NCBI GenBank assembly: GCA_013697635.1
Contig: JACCWM010000112.1
Span: forward strand, 1-46,500
Origin: Lujinxingiaceae bacterium
Lineage (GTDB): Bacteria; Myxococcota_A; Bradymonadia; Bradymonadales; Bradymonadaceae
Direction: 5' to 3'
Length of the DNA: 46,500 bases
This document shows, in pieces, positions 9,237-46,500 of the stretch. The position numbers were made by a program, and so were the translations under genes. How positions within the stretch are numbered: the first letter of the stretch is position 1; each line of letters begins with the position of its first letter. The notes beneath the pieces were generated by a model that saw nothing but the letters and a program-made list of their open reading frames with translations, did no database searches and was not told the DNA's origin.

Positions 9237-9269
9237 AGCGCGCTGCCTGAATGCTTTGCAAATACGGGG

Positions 9270-28122: not shown

Positions 28123-30093
28123 CTACTGCCCGCTCGCCACCGCCTCAATGCCCGCCGTCACCCGGTCGCCCTCCACGCCATGGATGTCGAGCGTGGGGTT
28201 GCGCAAGGTAATCCACGCCAGCTGCGCCTCGGCCGTCACCAGCAGATTGGTCGCAAAAAACGCTGGTACAATCTCGATCAAGGCCTCGATCAGCGAGGTC
28301 ACCCGCTCGTCGTCAAAATCGAGCAGCGGCTCATCGGCGATCTCCGCTCGCGCGGCGACCTCAAAGCTCAGGCGCACGTCGCTGCCTTCGATGGCAATCT
28401 CGACATCGAGGTCCAAGAATAGCGCCAGGGTCAGCAACGTCTCGCGCGCCTTGTCAGGATGGAGCAGGTCCACGTCGATCAAGAACTCCGCGATGCGAAG
28501 CTCAATCCCGCTGGAATTTGTCGCCGCCGGGTCAAACTCCACCACCGGCGGCAAGAGCGGGCGAAACACCATCGCCGCTGGCGTTTCGCCATCGGCATAG
28601 GCGCGAATCCTCGCGTCGAGCACGGTGGCAAGCCCATCGGCGGTGAGCGACATGGGCAGCGTCGTGCCCGCAAAGTCGTCGCCCTCGAGCGACTGGTGCA
28701 ACAGCCCGCTTCGCCATACGCCGTGTGCAATGCGCCCAATCGTCGTGCGGCTGGTCGCGACCTTGAGCTCGCCATCGACCGAGGCCGGCGAGCCGGCGCC
28801 TACTGGGCGGTTGAGCGCGCCGGCAACATCGGCCACCGCCGGGTATTTCTGCGAGGGCATCTCGACGCTGGCCATGATGTGCATTCCCAACGCCGTCGTG
28901 CGCACGCTCTCCACGAAGAGCTGAAACTCCAGGCTTCGGCCCAACAGCTCGATCTTGCGCCTGAGGATCGCCGGATCGTAGAGCTCCTCGATGAGCAGCG
29001 TGCCGATGTACTCGCTGAAGGCCTTCTCGGCGACCATCACGACCAGGCCGCGCAAAAAGGCCGAGTCGTCGGTCAAGTCGCTGTGAATACTACTCTCGTC
29101 GAGCACCAGTTCGGAGGCGATCACCTCGATCTTGATGCCGCCCTGAGGCGTGGCGGAGACGCGCACGTCGAGGTGGGCTTCGAGTTCGCTGATGCCAAAG
29201 AAGGTCGCGTGCGACTCGTTGTCAAAGCGGATATCCCCATCGACGCGCAGGTTCGTGATCTTCAGCGCTATGGCCAGATGATCCTGTTTGGGCGAGATCT
29301 GCACATCGATCGGATCAAAGGCGACAGCCGTGACGCTGACGAGCTCACTGCTGAGCGTTTGCTGCACATACTCCAATATCTGCTCGGGCTTGAGCAGCGA
29401 CTTGATCACGCCCGTCACCAGCTCAAAGCCCGCCGCCGAGACCGTGATGCCAAAGGCCGAGTTGATCCGCTCGCTCGGGTCGATCAGCGGCCCGTAGATC
29501 ACGCCGCGGCGCGTGCGGGCCTGGTGCCCGGCCTTGTCGATCGCCGTGATCGTCAGCTCGTTGAGCCCGACCTCGAGCGTGTAGCTGTGCTCGAAGCGGC
29601 CGTCGGCGTCGAGCTCGACCAACTGCTCGTCGATCTTGAGCAGCAACAGCCCCGAGCCCACGTCGGTGACCTGGCCGCGCACGATCAGCTCGCGGCTCTG
29701 CTCGTCGCCTCGCACCAGCCCGCGCTGTGGGCTCTCGATGACGATCTTGGGCGGCGCCGAGTCCACAAAAAAACTAACCTTGGACACGGCCTCACCGGCC
29801 AGCGCCTGCGCTGTGGCAGGCCCCTCGGGAAACTCCACGAGCACATCCCACGCGCCACCGGTCACCGTCGCGCGCACACCGTTGACCACCACCTCGCCGG
29901 TATTGCTCGCTGTGCCACGCACGTGAATGCGCCGCGCGGTGATGTATTGCTCAGCTTGCGGATACGTGATCGAGACCGTGGCCACGGCCGGCGTCTGCTG
30001 CACAGGCTCGGAGCAGCCGGCAAACACGGTGCTCACTAACAGCAGGACGAATAAGAGGGCAGATGCGGTGTCGCGCTGGGAAACTGTATTCAT
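28123..30093 (-). CDS. large lipoprotein with Ig-like domains and a possible lipid-binding region
   Basis: The 656-residue product begins MNTVSQRDTASALL and has lipobox FAGC. Two Ig-like beta-sandwich modules follow (about 40-120 and 125-215; SITYPQAEQYITARRIHVRG, LNELTITAIDKAG). From about residue 215 onward there is a long beta/alpha region with LLKPEQILEYVQQTLSSEL, and later strands such as LAIALKITNLRVDGDIRF. That layout recalls BPI/TULIP lipid-binding proteins, but this is inference from appearance. I chose the start at 30093 to give a normal signal peptide; a 22-residue extension upstream is possible. Divergent from the S9 peptidase gene. Confidence 0.6.
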   Translation of the reverse strand: MNTVSQRDTASALLFVLLLVSTVFAGCSEPVQQTPAVATVSITYPQAEQYITARRIHVRGTASNTGEVVVNGVRATVTGGAWDVLVEFPEGPATAQALAGEAVSKVSFFVDSAPPKIVIESPQRGLVRGDEQSRELIVRGQVTDVGSGLLLLKIDEQLVELDADGRFEHSYTLEVGLNELTITAIDKAGHQARTRRGVIYGPLIDPSERINSAFGITVSAAGFELVTGVIKSLLKPEQILEYVQQTLSSELVSVTAVAFDPIDVQISPKQDHLAIALKITNLRVDGDIRFDNESHATFFGISELEAHLDVRVSATPQGGIKIEVIASELVLDESSIHSDLTDDSAFLRGLVVMVAEKAFSEYIGTLLIEELYDPAILRRKIELLGRSLEFQLFVESVRTTALGMHIMASVEMPSQKYPAVADVAGALNRPVGAGSPASVDGELKVATSRTTIGRIAHGVWRSGLLHQSLEGDDFAGTTLPMSLTADGLATVLDARIRAYADGETPAAMVFRPLLPPVVEFDPAATNSSGIELRIAEFLIDVDLLHPDKARETLLTLALFLDLDVEIAIEGSDVRLSFEVAARAEIADEPLLDFDDERVTSLIEALIEIVPAFFATNLLVTAEAQLAWITLRNPTLDIHGVEGDRVTAGIEAVASGQ

Positions 30094-30187
30094 GAGGTCC
30101 GCTGTTGGGCCTGGTCGCATGGGTGTTGACGTCGGCTCTCTTTGTACAGCGTTGGCCATCGCCGATCAATGCGCGACCCGATGGGGG

Positions 30188-30217
30188 TTGCCCATTGGCT
30201 CCGATCTATTCTATAGA
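30188..30217 (+). promoter_or_regulatory. possible promoter of the S9 peptidase gene
   Basis: TTGCCC (30188-30193), 18-base spacer, TATAGA (30212-30217) lies about 75 bases before the ATG at 30293. The remaining 30094-30292 gap between the divergent genes shows no other feature I can support. Confidence 0.3.
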
Positions 30218-30292
30218 CCCGGCATGGTTAACCACTCGAACGGTGCACTCGCCACCCATTGCAAGCCCGCATACGCCGACAGGAAAGACATC

Positions 30293-32362
30293 ATGAATCG
30301 ACTCGCGCTCCTCCTCATATTGCTGAGCTCAGCCGTGCTCGGCTTTGGCTGCACTGCCGCTCAAGTGTCCTCCGACGAGACTCCAACCGAGAGCACAGCC
30401 GACAGCGCTGCCTCCCAAGCGCGCACTTATGTCGTCGACTTTCGCGACCGGCGCATCGATCTCGAGCCCTACGTACAGGGCTTCCCATTTAGCCAGTTTC
30501 AGCCCGATGTCGAACACGGCCACATGCTCTATTTCGAGACTACGCCGCAGGGTAAATGGCTTTATTTTCAAGATCTTGCCACCAAAGGTGAGATCGACCT
30601 GCGCGCCGGCCGAAAGCTCAACGACATCGACTGGTCGACGCGCAGCTTCTGGGGCGGCGTGTTTCATCGGCCCAGCCAGCGCTTCTTGGTTCGCGCCGAC
30701 GAGCGCAATGACGAGCGCATCAACCTGTACTGGATGGATTTGGCCACGGGCGCACTCGAGCAAACCACCGACAACGACTACACCTATGCCTTTGGCCTCT
30801 CCGAGGACCACTCGAGCGTGGCCTACGTGGCTCGCCACGGCACCAAAGAGCCCTTCAACAGCTGTCTGTACGTGCGCGATTTGACCAGCGGCGATGAGCG
30901 CAAGGTGCTCTGCGACGAAGGCGGCAGCGACCGCTTCACCTGGAGCAACGTCGAGTACTCGCCAGATCGCGACTTCGTGATCGTGACCGTGCAGCACGAT
31001 GGTGACCGCAACACGACCAACCTCGCGCGCATCGATCTCATGAGCGAGACTCCGGCTTTTGAGTTTTTGCTTGAGCGCGGCACCAAACACTTTCGCCTGG
31101 GCACGACCGCCAAGACCGTCAGCCACGACGGCTTGATCTACTGGTCGGCCAAGAGCGGCTTTGACAACCTCTACCGCTACGATTGGAGCGAGAAGGCCAG
31201 CACCGCGCTCACCGAATTCGAAGACGAGATGGCCAGCGCCGTCTACATGAAGAACGACGAGCAAGCCGTGCTCACCGTCGTCTTGCGCCGCCCCTACGAG
31301 TCCGAGATCCTCGTGCTCGACCCCGAGAGCGGCGGCGAGCTCTACCGCGAGCAATCCGACGACTCCTTGAGCATCTCCTCGCGCCACGCGATGGCCGGCG
31401 TAATCACGGCAAGCTCGGTGGCCTCGCCGTTTCGCATGGACCGCTTCACACTCGAGAGCGCCGATGGCGCGGTCAGGATCGTGCGCTCTCGCATGGCCGG
31501 CGTGCCTGGCGAGCTCGCCCGGCGCATCATCCACTGCAACGTCGAGCGCGTCTCCTACCCGACCTTCGACAAGCTCGCCGACGCCGCGCCGCGCATGTTG
31601 CACGCCTACCTGCTCACGCCGCGAAACCCGCCCACCGCCGACAAGCGCCTGGTGCGCATGACATCCTTCTACGGCGGCGGCAACCACTTCAGCACCGGCA
31701 CCCAGATCATGTGCGAGGCCGGCGTCGCGACCTTCAGCCCGGCGCCGCGCGGCAGCAGCGGCTTTGGCGCCAACTTCGCCGCCCTCAACGACGGCGATCT
31801 CGGCGGCGACGAGATCATCGATCTCTTCTACGGTGCCCGCTTTTTGGAGCAAGAGTACGGCTACACCGCCTCGCAAATCGGCGTTCACGGCGGCAGCCAT
31901 GGCGGCTACGCCACCATGCGCGCTTTGACCTTTCCGCCCGAGACCAACAAGCGCGATGAAGCCTACGCCTTTGGCTTTGGCATCAGCCACGCCGGCTTCT
32001 CCGACATCCTGAGCTTTTTCGAGACCTGCAACATCCCCGACTGGGTGATCCTCGAGGCCGGAAACCCCGCGACCGAGGCCGACAAGCTGCGCGATCGCTC
32101 GCCCTTGACCCACGTCGAGCGCCTCGCCGCCCCGATCCTGCTCACCCACGGCGAAAACGACAGCCGCGTCCCCGTCGCCGAGAGCCGCCGCTTCGCCGAG
32201 CGCGCCAGCGAGCTCGGCCGCCCCGTCACTTACGTGGAATTTGCCGGGCAAGGCCATGGCATCGACGGGCTCGACAACACCCTGCACTACTACCGCGTGG
32301 TCTTCGACTTTCTGGCCCAAAAGGTCGACCCCCAATTGGTCGTTCAGAGCGAAGCGGATTGA
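30293..32362 (+). CDS. secreted S9-family (prolyl oligopeptidase-like) serine peptidase lipoprotein
   Basis: The 689-residue product has a signal peptide with a cysteine in FGCTAAQ, then a beta-propeller-like N-terminal half (about residues 50-440; repeated strands such as LYWMDLATGALEQ). An alpha/beta hydrolase domain follows, with the catalytic triad S535 (GGSHGG), D623 (HGENDSRVPV) and H655 (GQGHGI). These enzymes cut peptides, usually after proline or by dipeptidyl cleavage, and the propeller restricts access. AGGAAAG precedes the ATG by six bases; a longer upstream frame is not supported. A bidirectional terminator follows the gene. Confidence 0.9.
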   Translation: MNRLALLLILLSSAVLGFGCTAAQVSSDETPTESTADSAASQARTYVVDFRDRRIDLEPYVQGFPFSQFQPDVEHGHMLYFETTPQGKWLYFQDLATKGEIDLRAGRKLNDIDWSTRSFWGGVFHRPSQRFLVRADERNDERINLYWMDLATGALEQTTDNDYTYAFGLSEDHSSVAYVARHGTKEPFNSCLYVRDLTSGDERKVLCDEGGSDRFTWSNVEYSPDRDFVIVTVQHDGDRNTTNLARIDLMSETPAFEFLLERGTKHFRLGTTAKTVSHDGLIYWSAKSGFDNLYRYDWSEKASTALTEFEDEMASAVYMKNDEQAVLTVVLRRPYESEILVLDPESGGELYREQSDDSLSISSRHAMAGVITASSVASPFRMDRFTLESADGAVRIVRSRMAGVPGELARRIIHCNVERVSYPTFDKLADAAPRMLHAYLLTPRNPPTADKRLVRMTSFYGGGNHFSTGTQIMCEAGVATFSPAPRGSSGFGANFAALNDGDLGGDEIIDLFYGARFLEQEYGYTASQIGVHGGSHGGYATMRALTFPPETNKRDEAYAFGFGISHAGFSDILSFFETCNIPDWVILEAGNPATEADKLRDRSPLTHVERLAAPILLTHGENDSRVPVAESRRFAERASELGRPVTYVEFAGQGHGIDGLDNTLHYYRVVFDFLAQKVDPQLVVQSEAD

Positions 32363-32455: not shown

Positions 32456-33160
32456 TCACTCGACGCAGTACTTGCCCGTCGCGTTGCCCACGGCCTCGCA
32501 ATTCCAAAAGGTCGGGCAGTCCGTAAAGCTCTGGCAGGTCGCCGAGCAGTAGCCGAACTGGGTGCTGCCGTCGCTGGCGACGAGGCAGACTTTGTAGAGG
32601 CAGTCATTGTTGACCTGGCAGCTCTCGCCGAAGTCGTTGGCGGCGCATTTGCCCTCGAACGCGCCGGCGGCCTTCTTGCAGTAGGTCGAGTCGCAATCGT
32701 CGCCGTCGTCACAGTCTGCGCCGATGCCCTTGTTGCTGTTGGTGTTGTTGGTATTGGTGTTGTTGGTGTTGGAGTTGTTGTCGTCACCACCACCGCAATT
32801 GTCGGCCGCGTCACACGTCGACGACGCGTTGACGCAGTTTCTATCAGCATTGCTCAACGTGTTGCAGCCCTCGACACAATTGGTCTTAAATGCGGCCGGC
32901 AGGCAGCCCATCGTGATCAACTTGTCGCACGTGGCATCGCAGGTCAGCGTCGGCGTCGACGTGTTGTTGGTGTTGGTGTTGTTGGTGTTCGTGTTGTTGG
33001 TGTTCGTATTGTTGGTGTTCGTATTGTTGGTGTTGGTGTTGTTCGTGTTCGTGTTGTTGCTGCTGCTGCCGCGGCGGCGGCGATCGTCGTCACCGCAGCC
33101 AATCACGAAGGTAAATGCGATACAAAGGGACACGAACAATTGAAAGCGAACGGATTTCAT
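32456..33160 (-). CDS. Asn-Thr repeat, cysteine-rich lipoprotein
   Basis: The 234-residue product has lipobox VIGC then GDDDRRRRG and a linker of about six NNTNT units. A cysteine-rich module (CDATCDKLITMGCLPAAF onwards) follows, then a second Asn-Thr linker, and a C-terminal cysteine-rich module (DCDDGDDCDSTYC to YCVE). Disulfide-stabilised modules joined by flexible linkers suggest a cell-surface protein reaching outside the cell. GGAG lies about eight bases before the ATG. The promoter is well placed upstream (33242-33270) and its transcript ends at the shared terminator. Confidence 0.82.
   Translation of the reverse strand: MKSVRFQLFVSLCIAFTFVIGCGDDDRRRRGSSSNNTNTNNTNTNNTNTNNTNTNNTNTNNTNTNNTSTPTLTCDATCDKLITMGCLPAAFKTNCVEGCNTLSNADRNCVNASSTCDAADNCGGGDDNNSNTNNTNTNNTNSNKGIGADCDDGDDCDSTYCKKAAGAFEGKCAANDFGESCQVNNDCLYKVCLVASDGSTQFGYCSATCQSFTDCPTFWNCEAVGNATGKYCVE
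32731..32780. repeat. second Asn-Thr linker repeat in the same gene
   Basis: A shorter run of GTT/GGT-type units encodes the second NNT linker of the minus-strand lipoprotein. It is similar to, but shorter than, the 15-base repeat at 32961-33059. Confidence 0.75.
32961..33059. repeat. 15-bp tandem repeat encoding NNTNT units
   Basis: About six units of a 15-base motif (variants of TGTTGGTGTTCGTAT) on the plus strand encode NNTNT on the minus strand. Copy number may vary between strains with the frame preserved. Confidence 0.85.
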
Positions 33161-33270: not shown

Positions 33271-33310
33271 CCCAAAAATTGACCGCACTTTTTGCGCGAT
33301 GCGCTTCGGT

Positions 33311-33967
33311 TTACTCGACCAGCCGGGCCAGGCCGTGCTCGCGCACCAGCACGAGGCGGCGCCTGGCGAGCAGGTGCTCGCGGCGAGCTTGCGGGCTCAT
33401 GCGGGCGACGATCTGCTCGTTCTCGCGCACGATGCGCTCCTCGATGCGCGCCTGCTCGATTTGGTCGAGCGCGGCAAAGAAGCCGTCGACGAGCGCGCGC
33501 TCCACGGCGGCGAGCTCGTCAAAGGGTGTCGCGACACCGCCCTTGCAAAGCAGGCGAACGCGTCGGTAGGCCTCGCGGTAGAGCGCCTTGATCTTGTCGT
33601 CTTCGCTCGCTTTGCCGGCGCGCTCGATGTTGCCCAGGGCGCGCTCGAACACCTCGCTCTCGTCGGCGGGGGCGTCGATTTGCTCGTCTTCGTGGCCGCC
33701 GACGCCTTTTTGGCGCGCAACGGCGACGAGCGGCTCGATGTAGGCGCGACAATTGTAGATGCCGCGCGGCGGATCGCCCTCGCCCAGAGCCTCGACGGCC
33801 TCTTTGAGCCCGCGACAGACCACCGCAGCCGTCACACCCTGGGCGCGCCAGCGGCTGAGCAGCTCCAGATCTCGCCCGCTGAACATGATGGCACGCCCGG
33901 TCAGCTCCATGAAGAAGACCTGGATCGTGTCGAAAAAACCCATGCTGTCAGCGGGGTAGTGGCTCAA
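33311..33967 (-). CDS. hypothetical cytoplasmic protein, last gene of the flippase operon
   Basis: I do not recognise a named family for this protein of up to 218 residues. The first part (about 20-85) has the pattern FSGRDLELLSRWRAQGVTAA with PPRGIYNCRAYIEPL, reminiscent of small winged-helix or DnaD-like domains in other deltaproteobacteria; this is a guess. The rest is helical and charged. The start is uncertain: a TTG at 33967 overlaps the upstream stop as TTGA, with GAGGAG about eleven bases before it; the first ATG is at 33943. It lacks a signal peptide. Transcribed with the lipoprotein, flippase and BtrH-like genes. Confidence 0.6.
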   Translation of the reverse strand: MSHYPADSMGFFDTIQVFFMELTGRAIMFSGRDLELLSRWRAQGVTAAVVCRGLKEAVEALGEGDPPRGIYNCRAYIEPLVAVARQKGVGGHEDEQIDAPADESEVFERALGNIERAGKASEDDKIKALYREAYRRVRLLCKGGVATPFDELAAVERALVDGFFAALDQIEQARIEERIVRENEQIVARMSPQARREHLLARRRLVLVREHGLARLVE

Positions 33968-34509
33968 GGACGGGTCGTCTCCTCATCGGCAGACTCTTTT
34001 TCGAGGCTCTCTTGCAAGGCGGCCTCCTTGACGGCGGCCTCCTTGACGGCGGCGTCCTGCTTGGCCTTTTCCTGCTTGGCCTTGCGGTACTCATCGCGCT
34101 CGGTGCGCTCAAAGAGCTGCCAGGAGTCGCCCACGGTCTTCCACACCTCGATATAGCGCACCGTGGCCACGACCATGCTGGGCATCTTGTAGGACTCCTG
34201 CTCGACGTCGACCTCGGCCATCTCCACCTCGATCGTGATGCTCTTGATGTTGAGGTCGACGATCTTGAAGTCGTCGCCGAGCTCCTCATAGCGCCCGAGA
34301 AAGCTCTGGCGGTAGCCGTCGGCGACATAGAGCGCGGCCTGCTCCCAGCGCCCCCAACGCAAGTCGAGATGGAAGTTGTTCAGGTTGTATTGCAAGGCCT
34401 GCGGGTCGCCCGGGCGCTTGGCCTCGGGCTTGGTCGCGCAGGCCGAGACACTCAAGAGCAGCGCGCCCACAAGGGCCAGGACGAGGGCAAAGCGTTGAGA
34501 ATACTGCAT
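33964..34509 (-). CDS. small lipoprotein, unknown function
   Basis: The 181-residue product has lipobox VSAC (cysteine near residue 24). A central mixed alpha/beta domain follows (LDLRWGRWEQAALYVADGY to TVGDSWQLFERTERDEY), perhaps NTF2-like. The tail is Ala/Lys/Glu-rich and contains a perfect AAVKE-type duplication. The gene starts eleven bases after the flippase stop and its end overlaps the start of the next gene, so it belongs to the four-gene operon. Likely membrane-anchored on the periplasmic side. Confidence 0.7.
   Translation of the reverse strand: MQYSQRFALVLALVGALLLSVSACATKPEAKRPGDPQALQYNLNNFHLDLRWGRWEQAALYVADGYRQSFLGRYEELGDDFKIVDLNIKSITIEVEMAEVDVEQESYKMPSMVVATVRYIEVWKTVGDSWQLFERTERDEYRKAKQEKAKQDAAVKEAAVKEAALQESLEKESADEETTRP
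34019..34048. repeat. 15-bp direct repeat in the lipoprotein tail
   Basis: Two identical 15-base copies of GGCGGCCTCCTTGAC, followed by a partial third, encode the AAVKE repeat of the lipoprotein tail. Confidence 0.7.
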
Positions 34510-34520
34510 GTTCTCTTGAC

Positions 34521-36299
34521 CTATGAGCGGCCGATAACGGCCTTGAAGCGGTTGAAGTCCTTGGCGGTGAACTCGCGGGCCACCGCGAGCACGCCCAGCA
34601 TGGCGATGCCCATGACGGCCATTTTGGCCACGATCATGAGCAAATAGAACATCTTACCCTGGATTGCGACCAGCGCCGGATCCATCGGCCAGAGCTGATC
34701 GATGCCAAAAAGTGCGACGGCCGCGAGCAGCAGGCGCGCGATCGTGGCTACCGGCAAGACGGCGCGAAACTTGTAGTACAGCCAGCAAAGGGAGACGACA
34801 AAACCAAAGACCATGGCGATCGTCGTGGCGATCGCGGCCTGCTGCATATAGAGCGTGCCCTCGAGCAGATAGGGCGCGGCAAAATCCGCCCGGTTGCTCG
34901 CAAGCTCGATGGCCTGGTGCACCGCGGCCATCGGCGAGTCCGCCAGGGCAAGCTCGCCGGGCGCGCTGTGGTGCGTGGCGAGCATCTCCATGGTCGACTG
35001 GTGCACTCGCGAGATGAAAACGTAGTTGAGCACGGCGCTGACCACCATCGATGCGCCCATGATCACGACGGCCGCAAGCGGGTGGCCCGATCCGATGATC
35101 ATCGTCGTGGCCACATAAAACAGGGCAAAGAAGATGATCGAGACGCTCAGAATCGACAGCGCGACCGCAGCCCGTCCGTAATCGGCCGAGTACAGCGCGG
35201 CGATGATCGAGTCGGAGTTGAAGGCGAGCAACATGGCCACGCCGCCGATCAGCAGCAGGCAGTAGCGAAAGGTCTCGCGCACATAGCCGCGCGTCTTTTC
35301 GGTGTCGTCGCTGAAGGTCGACTGGCTGATCAGCGGGAAGATCACGAAGGTCACAGCGATCACGCCCTGATAGGGAATGCGCGCAATGTTGAGCACCGCG
35401 CCGTAAAAGCCCGCGAACTTGTTGCTGATCAGCGCAAAGATGTTCTCCATGCCCGCAAACTGCGCGGGCATATCGGCCGCCACGGCCTTGAGGATGAACA
35501 AGTCCGAGCGCATGATTCCGTTGAGCGCAAAGGTATAGAGCATGACCAGCACCAGATAGCTGAGCAGGCGCTTGAGCGAGGCTGAGGCCTCGGCGCGCGT
35601 CTGGGCATCGGGCGGCCCGCTGGCCTCGGCGGCGATCGCCGCGCGCCGGCGCATCAGCCTCAACGTCCAGGCCCCCGAGATCACACAGATCAAGCCGGCC
35701 GCGATCACAAAGCCCGCCACCGCCCCGATCACCCCAAAGCCCAGCAACACCAGGCCCAAGATGCCGACCATCTTCATGGTCGCAAAGGTCATATCGAGGC
35801 TTGCCTGCTTGACGAACTCCTTGAGCCCGTTGAGATAGCCCACGAAGATCGCGTAGAAGGCGTAAAACAAGATGATCAAGCTCGACAGCCGAAACAGCCC
35901 GGTCAGCGAGGGATCGTTAAAGCTCGCCGCGATGTACGGGCTACCCAGCGCGTAGAGCAGCGCCACGGGCACGCCCAACATCAACTGCAAGCGCACCGCC
36001 AGGCGCACCACCTGGCTTGCCCGCTCGGGCTGCTCGCTGACCAGCTTGCTCACGGCCTGCAGGCTGCCGATGATCATGACCATGTTGATCAGGCCGATCG
36101 TCTCGGTCACGATCTTGAAGACGCCAAACTGCTCGGCCGAGCCAAATATAATCGGCAAACCAAGCTGAATGACCGCGCTCGTGACCAGAAACCAGACCTT
36201 GGCCGCCGTGATCACCAAAAAACCACGCCCGGTCTTCTTGATCGCCTCATGGTCGAGCGCTGCTGTGTCCTTCGAAGGTGCTTCTACTGCTTCAGCCAC
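34521..36299 (-). CDS. MOP-superfamily flippase (oligosaccharide/lipid flippase-like)
   Basis: The 592-residue protein is strongly hydrophobic, with about 13-14 predicted transmembrane helices. It begins with KVWFLVTSAVIQLGLPIIFG and SAEQFGVFKIVTETIGLINM, a pattern common to Wzx/polysaccharide-transport and MviN-like members of the MOP superfamily. These move lipid-linked sugars or peptidoglycan precursors across the inner membrane. A hydrophilic loop of about 40 residues lies near residues 435-475. The start is a GTG at 36299 with GGAG seven bases upstream. It begins 15 bases after the BtrH-like gene stop, so the two are co-transcribed; the substrate is unknown. Confidence 0.82.
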   Translation of the reverse strand: MAEAVEAPSKDTAALDHEAIKKTGRGFLVITAAKVWFLVTSAVIQLGLPIIFGSAEQFGVFKIVTETIGLINMVMIIGSLQAVSKLVSEQPERASQVVRLAVRLQLMLGVPVALLYALGSPYIAASFNDPSLTGLFRLSSLIILFYAFYAIFVGYLNGLKEFVKQASLDMTFATMKMVGILGLVLLGFGVIGAVAGFVIAAGLICVISGAWTLRLMRRRAAIAAEASGPPDAQTRAEASASLKRLLSYLVLVMLYTFALNGIMRSDLFILKAVAADMPAQFAGMENIFALISNKFAGFYGAVLNIARIPYQGVIAVTFVIFPLISQSTFSDDTEKTRGYVRETFRYCLLLIGGVAMLLAFNSDSIIAALYSADYGRAAVALSILSVSIIFFALFYVATTMIIGSGHPLAAVVIMGASMVVSAVLNYVFISRVHQSTMEMLATHHSAPGELALADSPMAAVHQAIELASNRADFAAPYLLEGTLYMQQAAIATTIAMVFGFVVSLCWLYYKFRAVLPVATIARLLLAAVALFGIDQLWPMDPALVAIQGKMFYLLMIVAKMAVMGIAMLGVLAVAREFTAKDFNRFKAVIGRS

Positions 36300-36314
36300 G
36301 TTCCTGCTCCATGC

Positions 36315-37313
36315 TCATAGACGGTCCCAAAACGTGCTCTCAAATTGGAAGACCGCCTCGGCCAGCGAGACGATCAGCGCCGCGGGATCTTTATCGGGTG
36401 CATCGTCGCTGCCCGCCAGAAATTTGCTCATCGAGAGCATGTAGCGCGCCATGGTGCTCCAGGCCTCGGCGGTGCGCGTCATGCTCACGGCCAGGTTACG
36501 GTCGAGCGTCGGGCAGATTGAGCCGGCTTCGAGCAAAAAGTCGCGGTACATCGCCCGAAAATTGCCGCCACCGGTGCCGCGGCGCTCGCTGACCTGGTAG
36601 GCGAAGCGATAGCACCAGGCGGCGTCGTCCAGCGTGCGCCAGGAGGCCACGCTGTCGGCGAAGTCGCGAAGCGCCCGCAAGCCGCCGATGCCACCGACCT
36701 CTTCTTCCATCAAAGCGGCGTTTTTCGCGATCGCCTCGACGATCACCTCGGCCACGGGCCGCGGCTTGCCAGGCTCGAGCACCCAGAAGACGTGCTGATT
36801 CTCAAAGCTCGGTGCCGCGCGTGAGGCCCGCGCCGCCGCAAGCTCCTCGAGCCCGACGCGCTGCAGCCCTTCAAAATGCGTGTCGGCCACCCAGGCAATC
36901 GCCTCGGCCTCGTTGTAGCCGACCACCACGATCCGGTGGCCGTTAAAAGATGACGCGCTCTGCCAGTAGGGCAGATAGCGCAGATCACACTGCACCAGCG
37001 CGGGGTAGCCGGCGTCGATCGCCTCCTTGACCCCGGCCCAGCCCACCTGGGGATCGGTGGAATAATGGGCTACCAACTTGAGTCCCAAGATCTGGGCAGT
37101 ATTTTCTTCCATGTCCCAGTGACGGCCCGTAAATTGGCGCGACGGGGAGATCATCTCGCTTTGCAGGTAGTAAAAGCCCAGACCGCTGCCGAGCCCGAAG
37201 ACCATCGGCTCGGAGAGCTTGATCCCGGCGTGGCGCAGCAAACTGGCCATCGCCACGCTTCCACAGTGGATTCCCGGCAGATGCTCGAAGCCTTGAATCA
37301 GGATGTCGCTCAT
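36315..37313 (-). CDS. BtrH_N / DUF4872 family protein (cysteine-dependent acyltransferase or peptidase fold)
   Basis: The 332-residue protein has the BtrH N-terminal signature GIHCGSVAMASLLRHAG with C17 as the likely nucleophile, followed by GLGSGLGFYY. NGHRIVVVGYN then supplies a likely catalytic histidine, and VADTHF the third residue. The C-terminal part carries the DUF4872 motif RGTGGGNFRAMYRDFLLEAG. In the antibiotic butirosin pathway BtrH moves an acyl group from an acyl-carrier protein to the product; other members are uncharacterised. No signal peptide is present. It is the first gene of the four-gene minus-strand operon with the flippase. Its substrate cannot be told from sequence. 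Confidence 0.85.
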   Translation of the reverse strand: MSDILIQGFEHLPGIHCGSVAMASLLRHAGIKLSEPMVFGLGSGLGFYYLQSEMISPSRQFTGRHWDMEENTAQILGLKLVAHYSTDPQVGWAGVKEAIDAGYPALVQCDLRYLPYWQSASSFNGHRIVVVGYNEAEAIAWVADTHFEGLQRVGLEELAAARASRAAPSFENQHVFWVLEPGKPRPVAEVIVEAIAKNAALMEEEVGGIGGLRALRDFADSVASWRTLDDAAWCYRFAYQVSERRGTGGGNFRAMYRDFLLEAGSICPTLDRNLAVSMTRTAEAWSTMARYMLSMSKFLAGSDDAPDKDPAALIVSLAEAVFQFESTFWDRL

Positions 37314-37392
37314 CGTTGCGCTCGCTCAAGTGGGGCAGGCGCGCCGAGATGGCTTGCTTCGGCGCACGAAAAGGTCTATTTCAAAGGAACTT

Positions 37393-38004
37393 ATGGATTC
37401 GATTCGGAGTTCAGCCTTGAACCACAAACCTATGTATCTCAGCCACTTCATCGGGCTAATTTTCGTCGCCCTCGCGCTGTGCTTCGCGCCGGCGGCGGTT
37501 TTGGCTGACGATCTCGCCACGCCTGCCAACGCCCAAGATCAGGACGTATCGCCGCCGCATTTTGAGCCCAAAGACGCCATTGAGCAAGCTTCCAGTGTGG
37601 TTGGGCCTGTCGAGCCCACGATCGCGGCGCCGGCCTTCGAGCTCTTTGGCAGCGACCATCGCCAGCGCATCTACGACGAGGCGCGCCTGAGCCACGGCAC
37701 CGCCGCGCTCTACTCGCTGGCCTTGCCCGGCCTTGGCAATATCTACACCCAGCAGTATTTGCTGGCTGGCGTCGCCTTTACCATGATGGCCTTCTCGACG
37801 GTCTTCATCGCCTTTGGCTTGCACTCCTCGCGCCCGGACGTGGTATGGATGGGCGCCGGTTCGGCCCTGATCACCTACACGGGCAGCATGGCCAGCAGCC
37901 TCTACGGCGTCTCCGACTACAACCGGCTGCTGCGCGAAGGCCTCAAGATTTCGGAGTTCGCCCCGCGCGCTGGGCCGAGCTTTGTTGTCTCCTTTCGATT
38001 TTGA
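37393..38004 (+). CDS. small membrane protein with signal peptide, TM2-like
   Basis: The 203-residue protein has an N-terminal signal-like segment (HFIGLIFVALALCFAPAAVLA). A soluble stretch of about 80 residues follows, then two hydrophobic helices. The first follows the pattern LALPGLGNIYTQQYLLAGV, similar to TM2-type membrane hairpins, with GAGSALITYTGSMASSLYG after it. I chose the ATG at 37393 because AAAGGAA precedes it closely; an internal ATG at 37432 would trim the signal. Its job is unknown. It is divergent from the BtrH-like operon across a 79-base gap with no clear promoter. Confidence 0.55.
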   Translation: MDSIRSSALNHKPMYLSHFIGLIFVALALCFAPAAVLADDLATPANAQDQDVSPPHFEPKDAIEQASSVVGPVEPTIAAPAFELFGSDHRQRIYDEARLSHGTAALYSLALPGLGNIYTQQYLLAGVAFTMMAFSTVFIAFGLHSSRPDVVWMGAGSALITYTGSMASSLYGVSDYNRLLREGLKISEFAPRAGPSFVVSFRF

Positions 38005-38899: not shown

Positions 38900-40249
38900 C
38901 TATGGGTTGGTCGAAAAGTGAAGGCGCACGCGCACCGGCACGAGGACATCGCCCTTGCCAAGTGAGGGTGCCACCTGGCCTTCGTCGTTTGCGCCCCAGC
39001 ACCAGACCTGCTGGGCGTCGTCGAGCGCACAGCTGTGTCGGTTGCCCAGCGCCAGGTCACGCAGCGCAGCCCAGGGTGATTGGGCGATGACCGGAACACT
39101 CACGCTCTGGTCGGCGCCGTTTTGCCCGTTGCCGAGCTGGCCATGGTCGTTTCGGCCCCAGCAGCGCACCTGCCCCTCGTCAAAGGCGCAGGCATGCTCG
39201 CCGAGGCCTGCGCGCACGCCCTGCATCTGAGTGAGGCTCTCGATGTCCAAAGCTTTGGCGCGCGACCCACCGGCTTCAGTGCCCAGTTGGCCAAAGTCGT
39301 TGTTGCCCCAACAGGCGACATCGCCGATCTCAGATAGCGAGCAGGCGAAATTCAGCCCGAGGGCGATCTCGCGCGCGGCATCGAGCGGAGTGATGACGCC
39401 TGCGCTGTCGCTTTTGGCCATCACGCCCGCGCCGTCACGTTCACCGAGCTGATCCCTCACGTTGTCTCCCCAACACGATACCAGCCCGCCCACGAGTCGC
39501 GCACAGCTGGTCGTGCCGCCAGTGGCGAGCTGGGCGACGTCTGCGACTCCATCCACGATCAGCGGCTGCGCCGATTGCGTCGTATTCCAATCGGCGCCGA
39601 GCTGCCCGACCGCATTGCTGCCCCAGCAGACGGCCTGGTCTGCGTCGTTGATCGCGCAGCCATGTTGGAAGCCCAGAGCGAGCGCAACAAAGGGCTCACC
39701 CCCGAGTGCTGGAACTTGAGTCGGAATGTGGCTTTCGCGGTCTGTGCCCGCAGGCACGCCCAACTGGCTCGCGCTGTTGTCGCCCCAGCATAAGACGCCG
39801 TCGGCGGCGATCACACAGGCGTGGCTCCACCCCGCGGCGATCGACGTGGCACCCACGAAACGCTCGACGATGTTCGGCCCAGACCAGCGCGAATCGTCGG
39901 CAGCAACACCGAGCTGCCCCAGGTCGTTGTGGCCCCAACAGGCCACGTCGTCGCTGGCCAGCAGCACGCAGTTAAAATCTGAGCCGGCGACCAACTGTAA
40001 AATGGCCGTGCACTGGCCATCCACGCAAGCCCCGTGCAGGCAGTCCTGGCAGATGTTGACATCGACGATGTCATCGTCTTGCACATCGATTGCGACGTCG
40101 ACGTCGACGTCATCTTCGACGCCCGCATCCAAAGCTGGCGCGCCCGGGCCATCTTCAAAGGCGTTGGTCAACGCGCAGCCGCCGGCCATGCACCCGAGCA
40201 CCAACAAAACAGCGCGCCACCCAAGGTGCGATCGATACGTCTTTGCCAT
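38900..40249 (-). CDS. RCC1-repeat lipoprotein, single seven-bladed propeller
   Basis: The 449-residue product has a signal peptide with MAGGC. An acidic Asp/Val repeat linker (about 40-65, DDVDVDVAIDVQDDDIVDV) and a small cysteine module (CQDCLHGACVDGQC) follow. Then come exactly seven RCC1-type units, each with a CWGxNxxxQLG-like end (CWGHNDLGQLG, CWGDNSASQLG, CWGSNAVGQLG, CWGDNVRDQLG, CWGNNDFGQLG, CWGRNDHGQLG, CWGANDEGQVA), so one closed seven-bladed propeller is expected. RCC1 propellers act as protein-binding platforms. The gene starts six bases after the stop of the larger RCC1 gene. Surface-exposed role inferred from the lipid anchor. Confidence 0.85.
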   Translation of the reverse strand: MAKTYRSHLGWRAVLLVLGCMAGGCALTNAFEDGPGAPALDAGVEDDVDVDVAIDVQDDDIVDVNICQDCLHGACVDGQCTAILQLVAGSDFNCVLLASDDVACWGHNDLGQLGVAADDSRWSGPNIVERFVGATSIAAGWSHACVIAADGVLCWGDNSASQLGVPAGTDRESHIPTQVPALGGEPFVALALGFQHGCAINDADQAVCWGSNAVGQLGADWNTTQSAQPLIVDGVADVAQLATGGTTSCARLVGGLVSCWGDNVRDQLGERDGAGVMAKSDSAGVITPLDAAREIALGLNFACSLSEIGDVACWGNNDFGQLGTEAGGSRAKALDIESLTQMQGVRAGLGEHACAFDEGQVRCWGRNDHGQLGNGQNGADQSVSVPVIAQSPWAALRDLALGNRHSCALDDAQQVWCWGANDEGQVAPSLGKGDVLVPVRVRLHFSTNP

Positions 40250-40255
40250 CGGGCA

Positions 40256-43183
40256 TCACTCCTGTGCGGTCTTCTCAATATTGAGCTGAAACAGACCGCA
40301 ACCGCCGCCGCTACCAGCCACGTCATAGTATGGCGGGGTGTCGACCACGATCGTGATGCGTTGGCCGCTGGTAAGCGGCAAGCTCAAGACCTGGTTGCTA
40401 TTATAGGTCGTATCCACGCAAGCGAGCTCCACGCCGGTGCAGCCACCGTTAAAGGCGTAGAGCATGCCGTACCTCGCCGAGCCCTTGAGATCGAAGCTGT
40501 ACGTGCCGGCCGATGGTGCCCGCCAGGTAAAGAGCTTCTCGGCGCCGTTGTTGTACTGCGTTCCTCCAATGTTACTGTGACACTGGCTCGCAAAATAATT
40601 GCCGTAAAGGCAGGTATTGCCGTCGCCGACGTTTTGACCAAGCGCCATGCCTAGATCTGTCGCGCAATCGCCGTCGTCACAGTCGGTCTTGGAGTCGGCG
40701 TCGTTGTCGATACCGTCGCTGCAAAGGCCGGCCTCGCTGGTCACCGGCGAGAGTGTCGGAATCGCCACGGCGTAGCGCCGGTCAACCGGCGATTCGCTCT
40801 GGCGTTGGTTATCGCCAAGGCGGCCATCGAAATTTTGGCCCCAACAAAAAAGCTGGCCCGAGCTGCGCTTCGCGCAGGAGTGGTAGGCGCCGGCCGAGAT
40901 TTCACTCACGCTGCTGATGTTTTGTACCTGGGTTGGCGTGGTTCGAATGACTCCACCATCGGTCGAGTTCCACCCCTGGTAGCTGCCGTCGCCAAGCTGG
41001 CCATTGGCGCCGCTGCCCCAGCAAAACGCCGCCCCGTCGTCCTGCACGGCACAACTATGGGCGCGGCCCAGATCGAAGCGCAATACCTTGAGCATGGTGC
41101 CGGCCGAGCCGACAAGCAAAATCCTCGAGGTCGAGCCGTTTCCAAGTTGCCCCTGGCTGTTGTTGCCCCAACACACGAGCTGCCGGTGCTCGCGAAGCGC
41201 GCAGCTGAACTGATCGCCGGCCTCGATCTGCAAGATCAACCCGAGTTGGCTGATCTGCGCTGGCTCCGGGTTTGGCGCGACCGTGCCGTTTCCGAGCTGG
41301 CCCTGGGCGTTTTGTCCCCAGCAGCGCGCCGTCTTGTCCGCGAGCATGGCACAGGTGTGATTGGCTCCGGCGCTCACGGTCCGCGCGTTGATAATCCCAA
41401 CGACGGTGGCCGTCGCCGCGACCACGGCGGTGGTCCCGGTGCCGAGCTGGCCACCGGCGTTGTTGCCCCAGCACTTGATCTGGCCGCCGGCCAGCACCGC
41501 GCAGCTGTGTTCATCACCGGCGCTCACATCGATCGCGTCGCTGATGCCGGCGACCGCCACCAGGTTTGGGTTGGCCGTGTTGACGCCGTGGCCGAGCCGG
41601 TTATGGCCGCCATGGCCCCAACACACCACCTCGCCGCCTTGCTTTCGCGCACAGGTGTGGTTGCCACGCGCCGAGATCTGCACCACGTCCAAAAGCGCGG
41701 TCTCATAGGGCGCATGAAAGTTGACGGAGTTGCCCGCGGCTGCATTGACCTGGCCATGGAAGTTGTTGCCCCAGCACCAGACCCGGCCGCCGGCGCGCAG
41801 CGCGCAGCTATGCTGGCTGCCAGCAACGATCGTCTGGCCGGCCGGCGTGGGCGGCGTAACCACCTCACCCACACACAGCCCCGCCTCGCAGCGCGTGTCC
41901 TGCGCACAAACCAGCCCGCACACCCCGCAGTTTGTGTCGTCGGTTTGCACGTTTGCATCGCCATTGCACGCCAGCGTGTTGGCGTCGGCGCACACCCTTC
42001 TGCCTGTGGCGCACACACCGCAGGCGGTTCCCGATTTGTGGTTGAGCCGATTGCAGCCGCCACACTCGTTGAGCTGGGTGGCATTGGCGCACTCGGTTTG
42101 ATTGGGTGCGATGCACACGTATTTTCCGTCGCCGCAAGGCCCACAGGCGCTGTTCGGCAGATTCGCCAAAATGCCCGTACCGCCGCACAGATTGTCCGTG
42201 CGCGGCTTGCACACCGAGCCGCCCTGGCTGTTGCATACGAAGTGTTGGCCCGCCCCGCAGCTTGTGCCAAGCGCGTGCTCGAGCGGCGAGCAGCCGCCGC
42301 AGGCGTTGGTGCCATCCTGGCAGACCACGCGCTCTGTGCCGTCGCACTGGAAGCTGCCCGCGCAGTCGCCGCAGGGCTGGCCGGGCGCAGCGAGCAGTGG
42401 CGCGCAGCCACCGCAAGCGTTGACCAACTGATCATCGCAGACCACCTCATCGGCCCCGGCGCAGCGATAGCTCCCCTCACCGCAGGCCCCGCACGCGACG
42501 CCGGGCAAGGCCGTGAGCTGCACCGCGCCGCCGCAGGCGTTGGTGCCCGGGCCCACGCACACCAGGTTGTTGCGCGTCTGGCAGTGCAACACGCCCGTAG
42601 CGCTGCCCACCTGGCAGGTAAACAGTCGCTCATCTTCACCGAGATCCGTGCAACCGCCACAGGCGTTTGGCTTGTCGTTGGCGCAGCTCAGGGCATTGGC
42701 GCCCTCGCACACAAAAGCGCCGTTGCCGCAGCTCCCACAATTGTCGCCGGGCGCCGCCTCGAGCACCTCACAGCCCCCGCAGCTATTGAGCTCGCTGGCG
42801 CGCGTGCAACGAAGCGTCTGCGGCCCGGCACAGACCACCAGGCCGTCGTCGCACGGCCCACACTTGTCGCCGGGCGCCCCCGCTGCCCCCTCCAGCGTCA
42901 ACGCCCCGACTCCGCCGCAGCCATTGCGCCCATCCAAGTTGGCATCCTGCTCGCCCGTATCGCTGAGCTCGCTCGGGCACTGACACGGCGCAAAGCGCCC
43001 GCTCTCCTGGCAAACCTGCACGTTGAGCTCGCCGCCCGGACAGGCGCAGCTCGACGATTGGCCGGGCACGCAGCGCGCATCCTGGACGGGGTCGTCGGCG
43101 CAGCCGCTAAGCACCCCGAGCACCATCAGTATCGAGAAAAAGTAGACGATGCGTGCTGGCAAACTAACAATTATCTTGGCCAT
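40256..43183 (-). CDS. giant lipoprotein: cysteine-rich repeats, RCC1 propeller, C-terminal beta domain
   Basis: The 975-residue product has lipobox LSGC and a short C-x-C module. Eight cysteine-rich units of about 40 residues follow (about 85-420), each opening N-x-CGG and carrying GxxCGxC and one or two further cysteines. Next comes a block with DTNCGVCGLVCAQDTRC. Seven RCC1-type units follow (about 460-800; CWGNNFHGQVN to CWGQNFDGRLG), predicting a seven-bladed propeller. DGIDNDADSKTDCDDGDC, a calcium-binding-like motif, is next, then a beta domain resembling prepeptidase C-terminal folds (TWRAPSAGTYSFDLKG). It looks like a disulfide-braced stalk carrying a binding head. No enzyme motif. 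First gene of the RCC1 operon, divergent from the kinase. Confidence 0.88.
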   Translation of the reverse strand: MAKIIVSLPARIVYFFSILMVLGVLSGCADDPVQDARCVPGQSSSCACPGGELNVQVCQESGRFAPCQCPSELSDTGEQDANLDGRNGCGGVGALTLEGAAGAPGDKCGPCDDGLVVCAGPQTLRCTRASELNSCGGCEVLEAAPGDNCGSCGNGAFVCEGANALSCANDKPNACGGCTDLGEDERLFTCQVGSATGVLHCQTRNNLVCVGPGTNACGGAVQLTALPGVACGACGEGSYRCAGADEVVCDDQLVNACGGCAPLLAAPGQPCGDCAGSFQCDGTERVVCQDGTNACGGCSPLEHALGTSCGAGQHFVCNSQGGSVCKPRTDNLCGGTGILANLPNSACGPCGDGKYVCIAPNQTECANATQLNECGGCNRLNHKSGTACGVCATGRRVCADANTLACNGDANVQTDDTNCGVCGLVCAQDTRCEAGLCVGEVVTPPTPAGQTIVAGSQHSCALRAGGRVWCWGNNFHGQVNAAAGNSVNFHAPYETALLDVVQISARGNHTCARKQGGEVVCWGHGGHNRLGHGVNTANPNLVAVAGISDAIDVSAGDEHSCAVLAGGQIKCWGNNAGGQLGTGTTAVVAATATVVGIINARTVSAGANHTCAMLADKTARCWGQNAQGQLGNGTVAPNPEPAQISQLGLILQIEAGDQFSCALREHRQLVCWGNNSQGQLGNGSTSRILLVGSAGTMLKVLRFDLGRAHSCAVQDDGAAFCWGSGANGQLGDGSYQGWNSTDGGVIRTTPTQVQNISSVSEISAGAYHSCAKRSSGQLFCWGQNFDGRLGDNQRQSESPVDRRYAVAIPTLSPVTSEAGLCSDGIDNDADSKTDCDDGDCATDLGMALGQNVGDGNTCLYGNYFASQCHSNIGGTQYNNGAEKLFTWRAPSAGTYSFDLKGSARYGMLYAFNGGCTGVELACVDTTYNSNQVLSLPLTSGQRITIVVDTPPYYDVAGSGGGCGLFQLNIEKTAQE

Positions 43184-43293: not shown

Positions 43294-45153
43294 ATGAGTG
43301 AGAAGTCGACAACCGCGAACGCCGCAACCAGCGGCCTCGAGGTGGGATCACTAATCTACGGGCGATACAAGATCGGCTCCGTTGTTGGCTCGGGCGGTTT
43401 TGCCACCGTCTACTCCGCCTTCGATCAGGAGATCGAGCGCACCGTGGCGATCAAGGTGCTCAACATCGAGGCCTTCGCCGCCCAGGGCACCTCGCTTGAG
43501 AACGTGCTCGCGCGTTTTCGCCGCGAGGCCCAGCTCGCCGCGCGCATCCGCCACCCCTCGGTCGTGCAGATCTTCGATTTCGGCGTACTCGAGCCCGAAA
43601 ACCGCCCGTTCATCATCATGGAGATGCTCGAAGGCCACGATCTCGAGGTCGAGCTCTACCAGAAAGGCCCGATGGCCCCCGCGCGCGTGCTGCCGATGTT
43701 TGGCGAGTCGCTCGACGCGCTCGGCGAGGCGCACCGCCTGGGCATCGTGCACAAGGATTTGAAGCCCTCGAATCTGTTCTTGACTGATCCTGGCACGCGC
43801 CGCGAGCGCCTGCGCCTGGTCGATTTTGGCATCGCCCACATCGGTGAGGCGACCAACTCGCGTCTGACGGCCACCGGCTCGTTTCTTGGCACCCCGGCCT
43901 ACATGGCCCCTGAGTACGTCGAATCGCAAGTGGTCTCGCCAGCGCTCGACGTCTACCAGATGGGCCTGATCTTGGTCGAGATGCTCACCGGCCGGCCCGT
44001 GGTCGACAATGAAAACCCCTGGAAGTGCGCGATGATCCACGTCTCCCAGGAGTTCGAGATCCCCACGCCGCTGCTCGACGGCCCGCTCGGCCAGGTGATC
44101 GAACTCGCGCTCGCCCGCGATCCGCAGCGCCGCTACAGCGACGCCGAGGTCTTCTCCGACGCGCTTCGCAAGGTTGACACCGGGGCCTTCAAGTGGCTCA
44201 ACCCCAAAGCGCCCACACGCCGGCTCAGCGCGCTCAATCAAGTTCGACCGTCCCAGCCCACCGAGACGCTCGATGACGACGAGAGCTTTGGCGAGGACAC
44301 CCAGGTCGCGCCGCCGCCTGTCGATCCGCGCTTTGCCCAGTTCGCCGCCTCCGTGTTCGCCGCGCCTCCCAAGACGGCGCCCAGCCCCGTCGTCGCGATC
44401 CCCAAGACCGAGCCCAACCCGGTCGTCGCCCCCTTCTTTGACACCGAGCGCCTCGACGTGGACTTCTCCGTCGGCCAGACCGATATGACGAGCTTCGACG
44501 CGATGGATTTTGGCGCCGAAGCCTACCTCGGTCCTGCGCCGGGCTTTGCTCCGCATCAAGCCACGGATCAATCGAGCTCCTCTTTGCTGCTCACCATGGC
44601 TGTTGTCGAGGAGCAGGCCGCCCCCCCGGCCAAGAGCACGCTGCTCGGCCTGGTCACCGTGATCTTTGCCGGCATCATCATCGTCACCGGCGCCGCGTTT
44701 TGGGCCTTTGGCACTCCCGCCACCAAGCCTCAGCCGGCGCCCATCGCGCCCGTCGTGCCCGTCGTGCCCGGTGTCGAGGTGCTTGAAGAAAGCGCCGAGA
44801 TGGTCTTTGAGCCGGGTGCGATCGTCATGGCGATCCGAGTCGACTCCGACCCCAGCGCGGCCGCGCTCTACCGCGGCGAGACCTTGCTCGGCCTCACGCC
44901 CACCACGGTGAGCTTTGATGCCGACAGCCTCGTGGTGCTCACGGCCCGCAAGTCCGGCTTCAGCGACGCCACCCTCGAGCTCAACGCCCAGAGCGATCCG
45001 AGCGCACTGATCGCCCTTGAAGCGCTGCCCAAGGTGGTGCCCAAGACCACGACGCCAAAGCCCGTCGAGAAACGAGGCCCACCCGCCGATCGCGGCAAGA
45101 ACAAGCAGCTCAAAGAGCAAAAGCAGCGCCCCAAGATGCAACTCCTCGATTGA
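43294..45153 (+). CDS. membrane Ser/Thr protein kinase with C-terminal PEGA-like domain
   Basis: The 619-residue protein has a kinase domain at about 25-290. It shows the glycine loop VVGSGGFATVY, VAIK with K54, E79, the catalytic loop VHKDLKPSN (D155, N160), DFG at 177-179 (in VDFGIAH) and the activation segment ending GTPAYMAPE. The catalytic-loop arginine is lysine (HKD). A Pro/Thr-rich linker leads to one transmembrane helix (about 450-472, LGLVTVIFAGIIIVTGAAFW). A PEGA-like beta domain (SDPSAAALYRGETLLGLTPT) and a basic tail follow. It is a PknB-like, membrane-bound kinase whose outer domain may sense envelope conditions. GC-rich, codon use like the neighbours. Downstream is dnaX, probably a separate unit. 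Confidence 0.92.
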   Translation: MSEKSTTANAATSGLEVGSLIYGRYKIGSVVGSGGFATVYSAFDQEIERTVAIKVLNIEAFAAQGTSLENVLARFRREAQLAARIRHPSVVQIFDFGVLEPENRPFIIMEMLEGHDLEVELYQKGPMAPARVLPMFGESLDALGEAHRLGIVHKDLKPSNLFLTDPGTRRERLRLVDFGIAHIGEATNSRLTATGSFLGTPAYMAPEYVESQVVSPALDVYQMGLILVEMLTGRPVVDNENPWKCAMIHVSQEFEIPTPLLDGPLGQVIELALARDPQRRYSDAEVFSDALRKVDTGAFKWLNPKAPTRRLSALNQVRPSQPTETLDDDESFGEDTQVAPPPVDPRFAQFAASVFAAPPKTAPSPVVAIPKTEPNPVVAPFFDTERLDVDFSVGQTDMTSFDAMDFGAEAYLGPAPGFAPHQATDQSSSSLLLTMAVVEEQAAPPAKSTLLGLVTVIFAGIIIVTGAAFWAFGTPATKPQPAPIAPVVPVVPGVEVLEESAEMVFEPGAIVMAIRVDSDPSAAALYRGETLLGLTPTTVSFDADSLVVLTARKSGFSDATLELNAQSDPSALIALEALPKVVPKTTTPKPVEKRGPPADRGKNKQLKEQKQRPKMQLLD

Positions 45154-45274: not shown

Positions 45275-46500
45275 ATGTCGTACGTAGTACTCGCCAGAAA
45301 ATGGCGCCCTGAGCATTTCGAGGAAGTCGTCGGCCAAGGCCATGTCGCCCGCACGCTCAAGAACTCCATTGAGCAGGACCGCGTCGCCCACGCCTACCTC
45401 TTCACCGGCGCGCGCGGCGTCGGCAAGACCTCCACGGCGCGCATCCTCGCCAAGGCCCTCAATTGCAAGGAAGGCCCCACCGCCACGCCCTGCTACAAGT
45501 GCGTCTCCTGCACCGAGATCTCCAAGGGCCAGTCCGTCGACGTCTTCGAGATCGACGGCGCCTCCAACCGCGGCATCAACGAGATCCGCGAGCTGCGCGA
45601 GGGCGTCCGCTACGCCCCCAGCCGCGACCGCAAGAAAGTCTACATCATCGACGAAGTCCACATGCTCACCACCGAGGCCTTCAACGCTCTGCTCAAGACC
45701 CTCGAGGAGCCGCCCCCCCACGCCGTCTTCATCTTTGCCACCACCGAGCCCCAAAAGATCCCGGTGACGATCTTGAGCCGCTGCCAGCGCTTTGACTTCA
45801 AGCGCATCACCCAGCGCGACATCGTCGAGCACCTCGAGCACCTCTGCAAACACGAGCAGATCACGGCCGACCGCGCCGCCCTCCAGCTCATCGCCCGCCA
45901 GGCCGCCGGCGGCATGCGCGACGCCCTGAGCCTGCTCGACCAGATCATCAGCTTTGCCGGCAACACCATCCGCGAAGAGCAAATCGCCGAGATCTTGGGC
46001 GTCGCCAACCGCCGCCACCTCTTTGAGCTCAGCGAGGCCGTCCTCACCCACGACCCCGAGCGCGCCCTGCTCGTGCTCGACGACGTCAACCGCTTCGGCT
46101 ACGACATGCAACAATTCGCCTCCGAGCTGGTCAATCACTTTCGCGATCTGGTCGTCACCGCCGTCGTCAAAAACCCCGAAGACGTCACCAACCTCACCGA
46201 AAGCGAGCTCATCCTCGCCCGCACCCAGCTCCAACACGTCCAATCCCCCGAGCTCCTCCACCGCTACTTCTCCGTCATGGTCGACGGCGCCCAGGACATG
46301 CACCGCTCCCCCTACCCCAAACTAATCTTCGAGATGACCCTCGTCCGCATGGCCGCCCTCGAACCCCTCACCAGCCTCGACCTCATCGTCGAAAAGCTGC
46401 GCACCCTCGAAACCGAGCTCGAACACGCCGGCGTCACCCCCGAACCCTATCTCCCCCCCACCCCCCTCGAGAACGTGATCGAGAACGTGATCGAGAACGT
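45275..46500 (+). CDS. dnaX: DNA polymerase III gamma/tau subunit (3' end outside window)
   Basis: The open frame from ATG 45275 continues past the window end, giving at least 408 residues. It shows the clamp-loader features: RPEHFEEVVGQ, Walker A GARGVGKTS (K51), a four-cysteine zinc module (C64, C73, C76, C79), IIDEVHML (Walker B variant DEVH), TLEEPPPHAVFIFATTE and the sensor ILSRCQRFDF. It loads the sliding clamp and organises the replisome. After about residue 400 the sequence becomes a tandem ENVI repeat that the window cuts off, so the tau C-terminus is missing. Upstream is a short intergenic region with a promoter-like sequence. Confidence 0.97.
   Translation, partial: MSYVVLARKWRPEHFEEVVGQGHVARTLKNSIEQDRVAHAYLFTGARGVGKTSTARILAKALNCKEGPTATPCYKCVSCTEISKGQSVDVFEIDGASNRGINEIRELREGVRYAPSRDRKKVYIIDEVHMLTTEAFNALLKTLEEPPPHAVFIFATTEPQKIPVTILSRCQRFDFKRITQRDIVEHLEHLCKHEQITADRAALQLIARQAAGGMRDALSLLDQIISFAGNTIREEQIAEILGVANRRHLFELSEAVLTHDPERALLVLDDVNRFGYDMQQFASELVNHFRDLVVTAVVKNPEDVTNLTESELILARTQLQHVQSPELLHRYFSVMVDGAQDMHRSPYPKLIFEMTLVRMAALEPLTSLDLIVEKLRTLETELEHAGVTPEPYLPPTPLENVIENVIEN
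46469..46500. repeat. 12-bp tandem repeat in dnaX
   Basis: Two full copies of GAGAACGTGATC and a partial third run into the window end, encoding ENVI units. The total copy number is unknown because the sequence stops here. Confidence 0.85.

Follow-up and report, generated by a model that had tools for sequence, protein, structure and literature searches.

A four-gene unit of a Lujinxingiaceae bacterium, probably composite, around a conserved flippase-lipoprotein pair

Introduction

Do four tightly packed genes for a BtrH-like enzyme, a flippase, a lipoprotein and a cytoplasmic protein form one biochemical pathway, or are they genes of separate origin that came to share a transcript? The question is raised by a locus on the minus strand (33311-37313) of a 46,500-nucleotide stretch of contig JACCWM010000112.1 (GCA_013697635.1, Lujinxingiaceae bacterium), here called the window. 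The original prediction read the four genes as a modification-and-export pathway for a product of the envelope. Comparison with related genomes points instead to what is probably a composite transcription unit, built around a housekeeping-like flippase and lipoprotein, in which the acyltransferase and the DnaD-like gene are hitch-hikers.

Organization of the four-gene unit

The open reading frames were recovered exactly as first described. The leading gene encodes the BtrH_N + DUF4872 protein (36315-37313, 332 residues, ATG start) and is followed by the genes for the flippase of the MOP superfamily (34521-36299, 592 residues, GTG start), the lipoprotein (33964-34509, 181 residues, ATG start) and a protein of 218 residues (33311-33967, TTG start), all on the minus strand. 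The genes are separated by 15 and 11 bases and then by a TTGA stop-start overlap of 4 bases, and GGAG / GAGGAG motifs resembling ribosome-binding sites lie upstream of the flippase gene and the 218-residue protein gene. Since a genome search found homologues of all four in relatives, all are real genes. Short intergenic gaps are by themselves ordinary in bacteria. From spacing and order, the four genes are likely one predicted transcription unit, in agreement with the single transcript that had been proposed. The divergent intergenic region (37314-37431) is presumed from its position to hold the promoters; a sigma-70-like promoter was looked for in this region and none was found. A terminator-like stem lies just past the last gene (33282-33300, minus strand), with four such stems observed in the region against 3.9 expected from shuffled sequences, which is no enrichment.

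The BtrH-like enzyme

In Pfam, the 332-residue protein matches BtrH_N with 132.8 bits (cut-off 29.7; 1.2e-38) and DUF4872 with 110 bits (cut-off 28; 1.4e-31). It shares with BtrH of butirosin biosynthesis (PF14399 + PF16169) both domains at full length and a Cys-His-Asp triad, here Cys17 (37263-37265), His126 (36936-36938) and Asp144 (36882-36884). Among 31 BtrH-like sequences, Cys17 and His126 are each kept in 30 and Asp144 in all 31, and the window protein has all three residues; the conserved cysteine and histidine of the original prediction are thus confirmed. In the BtrH homologue of genome G003 (L010 9018-10025), the sole family member with a changed His126, this residue is replaced by Arg (GARRI for NGHRI) while Cys17 and Asp144 are kept, and the protein is possibly an inactive or altered enzyme.

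BtrH itself has been described as an ACP:aminoglycoside acyltransferase (PMC10318531), and for this reason the 332-residue protein is predicted to be a papain-like cysteine acyltransferase. It would probably act in the cytosol, taking an acyl group from an ACP and passing it to the amine or hydroxyl of a small acceptor. Unlike the butirosin system, however, the unit lacks aminoglycoside, carrier-protein and ligase genes. The protein is also of the same BtrH type as DarH (NCBIfam NF053550) and the BtrH-like DarE of the dialkylresorcinol cluster of Azoarcus; it differs from them in that its DarH match, over residues 9-301, scores 123.4 bits against a curated cut-off of 300, and in that neither resorcinol nor polyene genes were seen next to its gene. 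Searches of solved structures with the BtrH-like sequence gave no relevant match, and a scan of the named genomes with this single protein as the query found no relatives. The window's genome encodes no other BtrH_N protein.

An alternative for this enzyme, that it is a peptidase or amidase and not an acyltransferase, is compatible with a composite locus and keeps perhaps one chance in four. It draws on a Peptidase_C39_2 match over residues 87-145 that falls just under the cut-off (9.4e-5) and on the papain-like relatives of the family (PMC10318531), but the full-length BtrH_N + DUF4872 match and the 123 bits to the model of the BtrH-related acyltransferase DarH argue against it.

Distribution of the BtrH gene and the 218-residue protein

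The BtrH-type gene is sporadic: it is present in 4/21 genomes of the family, many of the relatives compared being drafts, and in 4/12 of those of good quality. It adjoins the flippase gene in the window genome only, lies away from it in the other three carriers (G003, G005 and G010), and is absent from 16 family genomes that retain the flippase. Two of these carriers, G010 and G003, have it divergent from a gene for the same small membrane protein as that at 37432-38004 in the window, which is its commonest neighbour, with the flippase elsewhere or absent; in G005 flagellar genes precede it and it overlaps a gene for an alpha/beta hydrolase. Across the phylum, relatives of the protein occur in 65/379 genomes. 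No flippase of the window's family was found near BtrH in the 20 neighbourhoods examined there, the neighbours being, for example, sulfatase, luciferase-like, methyltransferase and hydrolase genes.

The 218-residue protein, which is cytoplasmic, is modelled as all-helical (AlphaFold2 pLDDT 89.8). The predicted fold of its N-terminal half (residues 13-85; 33713-33931, minus strand) resembles the DnaD-like structure 2zc2, a weak match (VIA Z 6.3, 66 residues aligned) that came only from a second structure comparison, Foldseek having given no match under E 0.5 with the model. PF07261 (DnaB_2) likewise matches weakly in 2/27 homologues, with a best E of 0.0025. A likeness to the DnaD/DnaB replication-initiation proteins would lie in the fold of the 70 N-terminal residues and in this weak family match, whereas the separate helical C-terminal half and the company of RecD2, instead of primosome genes, set the protein apart.

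In five relatives (G003, G007, G009, G010 and G015), all outside the window's clade, the gene for this protein stands directly behind RecD2. Therefore, its historical partner is a helicase and not the flippase, and in Bradymonadales the family may serve as an accessory protein of the helicase. Such loci include L109 of G003, where the RecD2 gene (9036-11920) and the gene behind it overlap by 4 bases, as well as L114 and L115. In G005 the gene follows that of a nickel-insertion protein, and in 11 genomes, the window included, it follows the lipoprotein. RecD2 is still present elsewhere in the window's genome (C125).

One pathway or a composite unit

The original prediction had proposed conservation of the four-gene order in relatives as its own test. 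The genes are scattered in related genomes and the full order occurs in one genome only, so the one-pathway reading fails that test. According to this reading, an amino sugar or lipid-linked sugar would be acylated by BtrH in the cytosol, exported by the flippase and taken over by the lipoprotein. The tight gene order in the window, the conserved triad, and the BtrH-like darE gene in an envelope-pigment cluster of Azoarcus that includes ABC transporter genes (PMC3949708) are in its favour, but BtrH lies elsewhere in its three other carriers and is missing from most genomes that keep the flippase, and the 218-residue protein has a history with RecD2. A single pathway therefore appears improbable, at roughly one chance in six, and in the window organism adjacency in one genome is its sole support.

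The composite unit, in contrast, is supported by the same two distributions, since BtrH is found in 4/21 family genomes and away from the flippase in the other three, and the 218-residue protein gene follows RecD2 outside the clade and the lipoprotein inside it. The BtrH-type enzyme and the flippase need not share a pathway. Because the BtrH gene comes first in the unit, the flippase is now probably transcribed from the BtrH promoter as well. As a whole, the four-gene set is ordinary and should not be handled as a biosynthetic pathway; what stands out is the pair of flippase and lipoprotein, an uncharacterised core component of this group.

The conserved flippase and its lipoprotein

The flippase matches Polysacc_synt_3 (7.9e-10) and Polysacc_synt (2.9e-9) in Pfam, with scores of 38.9 and 37.2 bits against cut-offs of 23 and 28.2, which places it with the MOP/PST proteins. 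In scoring above these cut-offs it resembles the Wzx/PST flippases and MurJ, members of the same superfamily, but it falls below both MurJ cut-offs (Pfam, 26.5 vs 27.4 bits; NCBIfam, 26 vs 235.55 bits). The genome has a clear MurJ of its own elsewhere (G000:C126, 255.7 bits), and the flippase was therefore ruled out as the MurJ of this organism. Two further Polysacc_synt_3 proteins are encoded in the genome. Two weak MurJ matches (C164 and C143), considered as controls for Wzx variability, were dropped since they were read as MATE-type proteins.

The flippase is present in 19/21 family genomes. In the 14 with usable matches to both proteins, its mean identity to the window is 60.4% and that of MurJ is 60.3%. 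Wzx flippases encoded in polysaccharide loci usually vary far more, and a fixed substrate is therefore the simplest reading of the flippase. It differs from the Wzx/PST proteins also in its fixed lipoprotein partner and in the absence of a glycosyltransferase cluster: as originally noted, no glycosyltransferase is encoded by the unit or by the genes closest to it according to a family search, nor was a linked polymerase found there. Apart from the lipoprotein, no consistent recurrent neighbour was found at 39 diverse flippase loci, the other clusters being mostly antisense or local ORFs. Searches of solved structures with the flippase sequence gave no relevant match.

The lipoprotein is present in all 21 family genomes, and its lipobox Cys24 is invariant in 27/27 homologues. 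No Pfam family was matched by it or by the 218-residue protein. Residues 34-140 (34090-34410, minus strand) are modelled with an NTF2-like fold (AlphaFold2 pLDDT 92.9) that aligns with 3hx8 (VIA Z 13.6, 106 residues, rmsd 2.2) and with the NTF2-like part of PBP5 (PDB code: 6mka; VIA Z 12.5). With its lipobox cysteine, this model makes the 181-residue protein a predicted NTF2-like lipoprotein. The fold over these residues is that of NTF2-like lipoproteins and of the MecA_N domain; however, identity to such structures is only ~6-18% and a penicillin-binding domain is absent. The NTF2-like fold binds many ligands, and the fold alone shows no function.

At 49 loci of named genomes, mostly from Myxococcota with a few from Acidobacteria and some ending at a contig edge, the lipoprotein gene directly follows that of the flippase in 27 and is nearby in two more. 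Where the profile missed the lipoprotein, the next ORF is mostly unrelated or antisense-like. In G002 the flippase gene stands apart from the lipoprotein and 218-residue protein genes; therefore, the modules can separate. The pairing of flippase and lipoprotein is genuine, old and conserved, and this part of the original prediction is supported. The flippase would carry a single, fixed lipid-linked precursor over the inner membrane, and the lipoprotein, on the periplasmic side, may bind the flipped product or the flippase itself. More specifically, Myxococcota and a few Acidobacteria may share a two-component core system, so far undescribed, in which the two proteins handle one conserved lipid-linked compound of the envelope. 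The system would be retained with the same strictness as MurJ, and in the window genome BtrH would additionally acylate the compound, although this fuller proposal is put forward as a long shot. A second lipid II flippase, with the lipoprotein as the partner of a cell-wall synthase, would agree with the MurJ-like conservation, the weak MurJ match of 26.5 bits and the resemblance to PBP5, but is quite unlikely given the MurJ already in the genome, the equal Z with which the fold matches many unrelated NTF2 proteins, and the lack of any cell-wall gene seen travelling with the flippase. Interest thus shifts to a flippase of Myxococcota that is conserved at the level of MurJ and has a dedicated lipoprotein, without linked glycosyltransferases.

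Evolution of the locus

In the flippase tree, the window is placed beside ten genomes that lack BtrH; the support of this ten-genome group is 86/83, which is below the starred level, and that of the eleven-genome clade including the window is 100/98. It is only in this clade that the 218-residue protein gene became part of the flippase cassette. The simplest account suggests that a pair of BtrH and the small membrane protein, the flippase-lipoprotein pair and the 218-residue protein gene came together in the ancestor of the eleven, and that BtrH would subsequently have been lost in ten of them. The DnaD-like protein, whose usual partner is RecD2, would have arrived behind the flippase-lipoprotein pair in that ancestor and presumably acts with DNA. 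The order in the window combines two neighbour pairs, the small membrane protein gene with BtrH and the same gene with the flippase, each of which also occurs in other genomes. The complete order may therefore date back to the ancestor of the eleven-genome clade and may have had a function in that clade, a point against the composite reading.

Neighbouring genes

The small membrane protein is encoded outside the operon, on the plus strand (37432-38004). It is DUF5683-like (7e-4) and its gene is the oldest linked neighbour of the unit; the ORF opens at 37303 and the likely start is 37432. In 7/10 of the genomes grouped beside the window, this gene is divergent from the flippase gene with no BtrH between them.

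Directly downstream of the unit, a gene on the minus strand (32456-33160) encodes a predicted lipoprotein in which a long tract of Asn-Thr-Asn repeats precedes a Cys-rich part. An S9 prolyl oligopeptidase-type peptidase is encoded at 30032-32362 (plus strand), and its relatives are found near the flippase in Lujinxingia loci. On the other side, two adjacent predicted secreted proteins of 449 and 975 residues with RCC1-like CWGxNxxGQLG repeats (38900-43183, minus strand) lie between the small membrane protein gene and a Ser/Thr kinase gene (43294-45153); this pair was not seen at the corresponding site in Lujinxingia loci. The start of a DnaX-like gene (DNA polymerase III gamma/tau) is found at 45275-46500 (plus strand). 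Since the DnaX-like gene adjoins the small membrane protein gene in Lujinxingia and G017, it appears that local synteny survives an insertion of ~7 kb.
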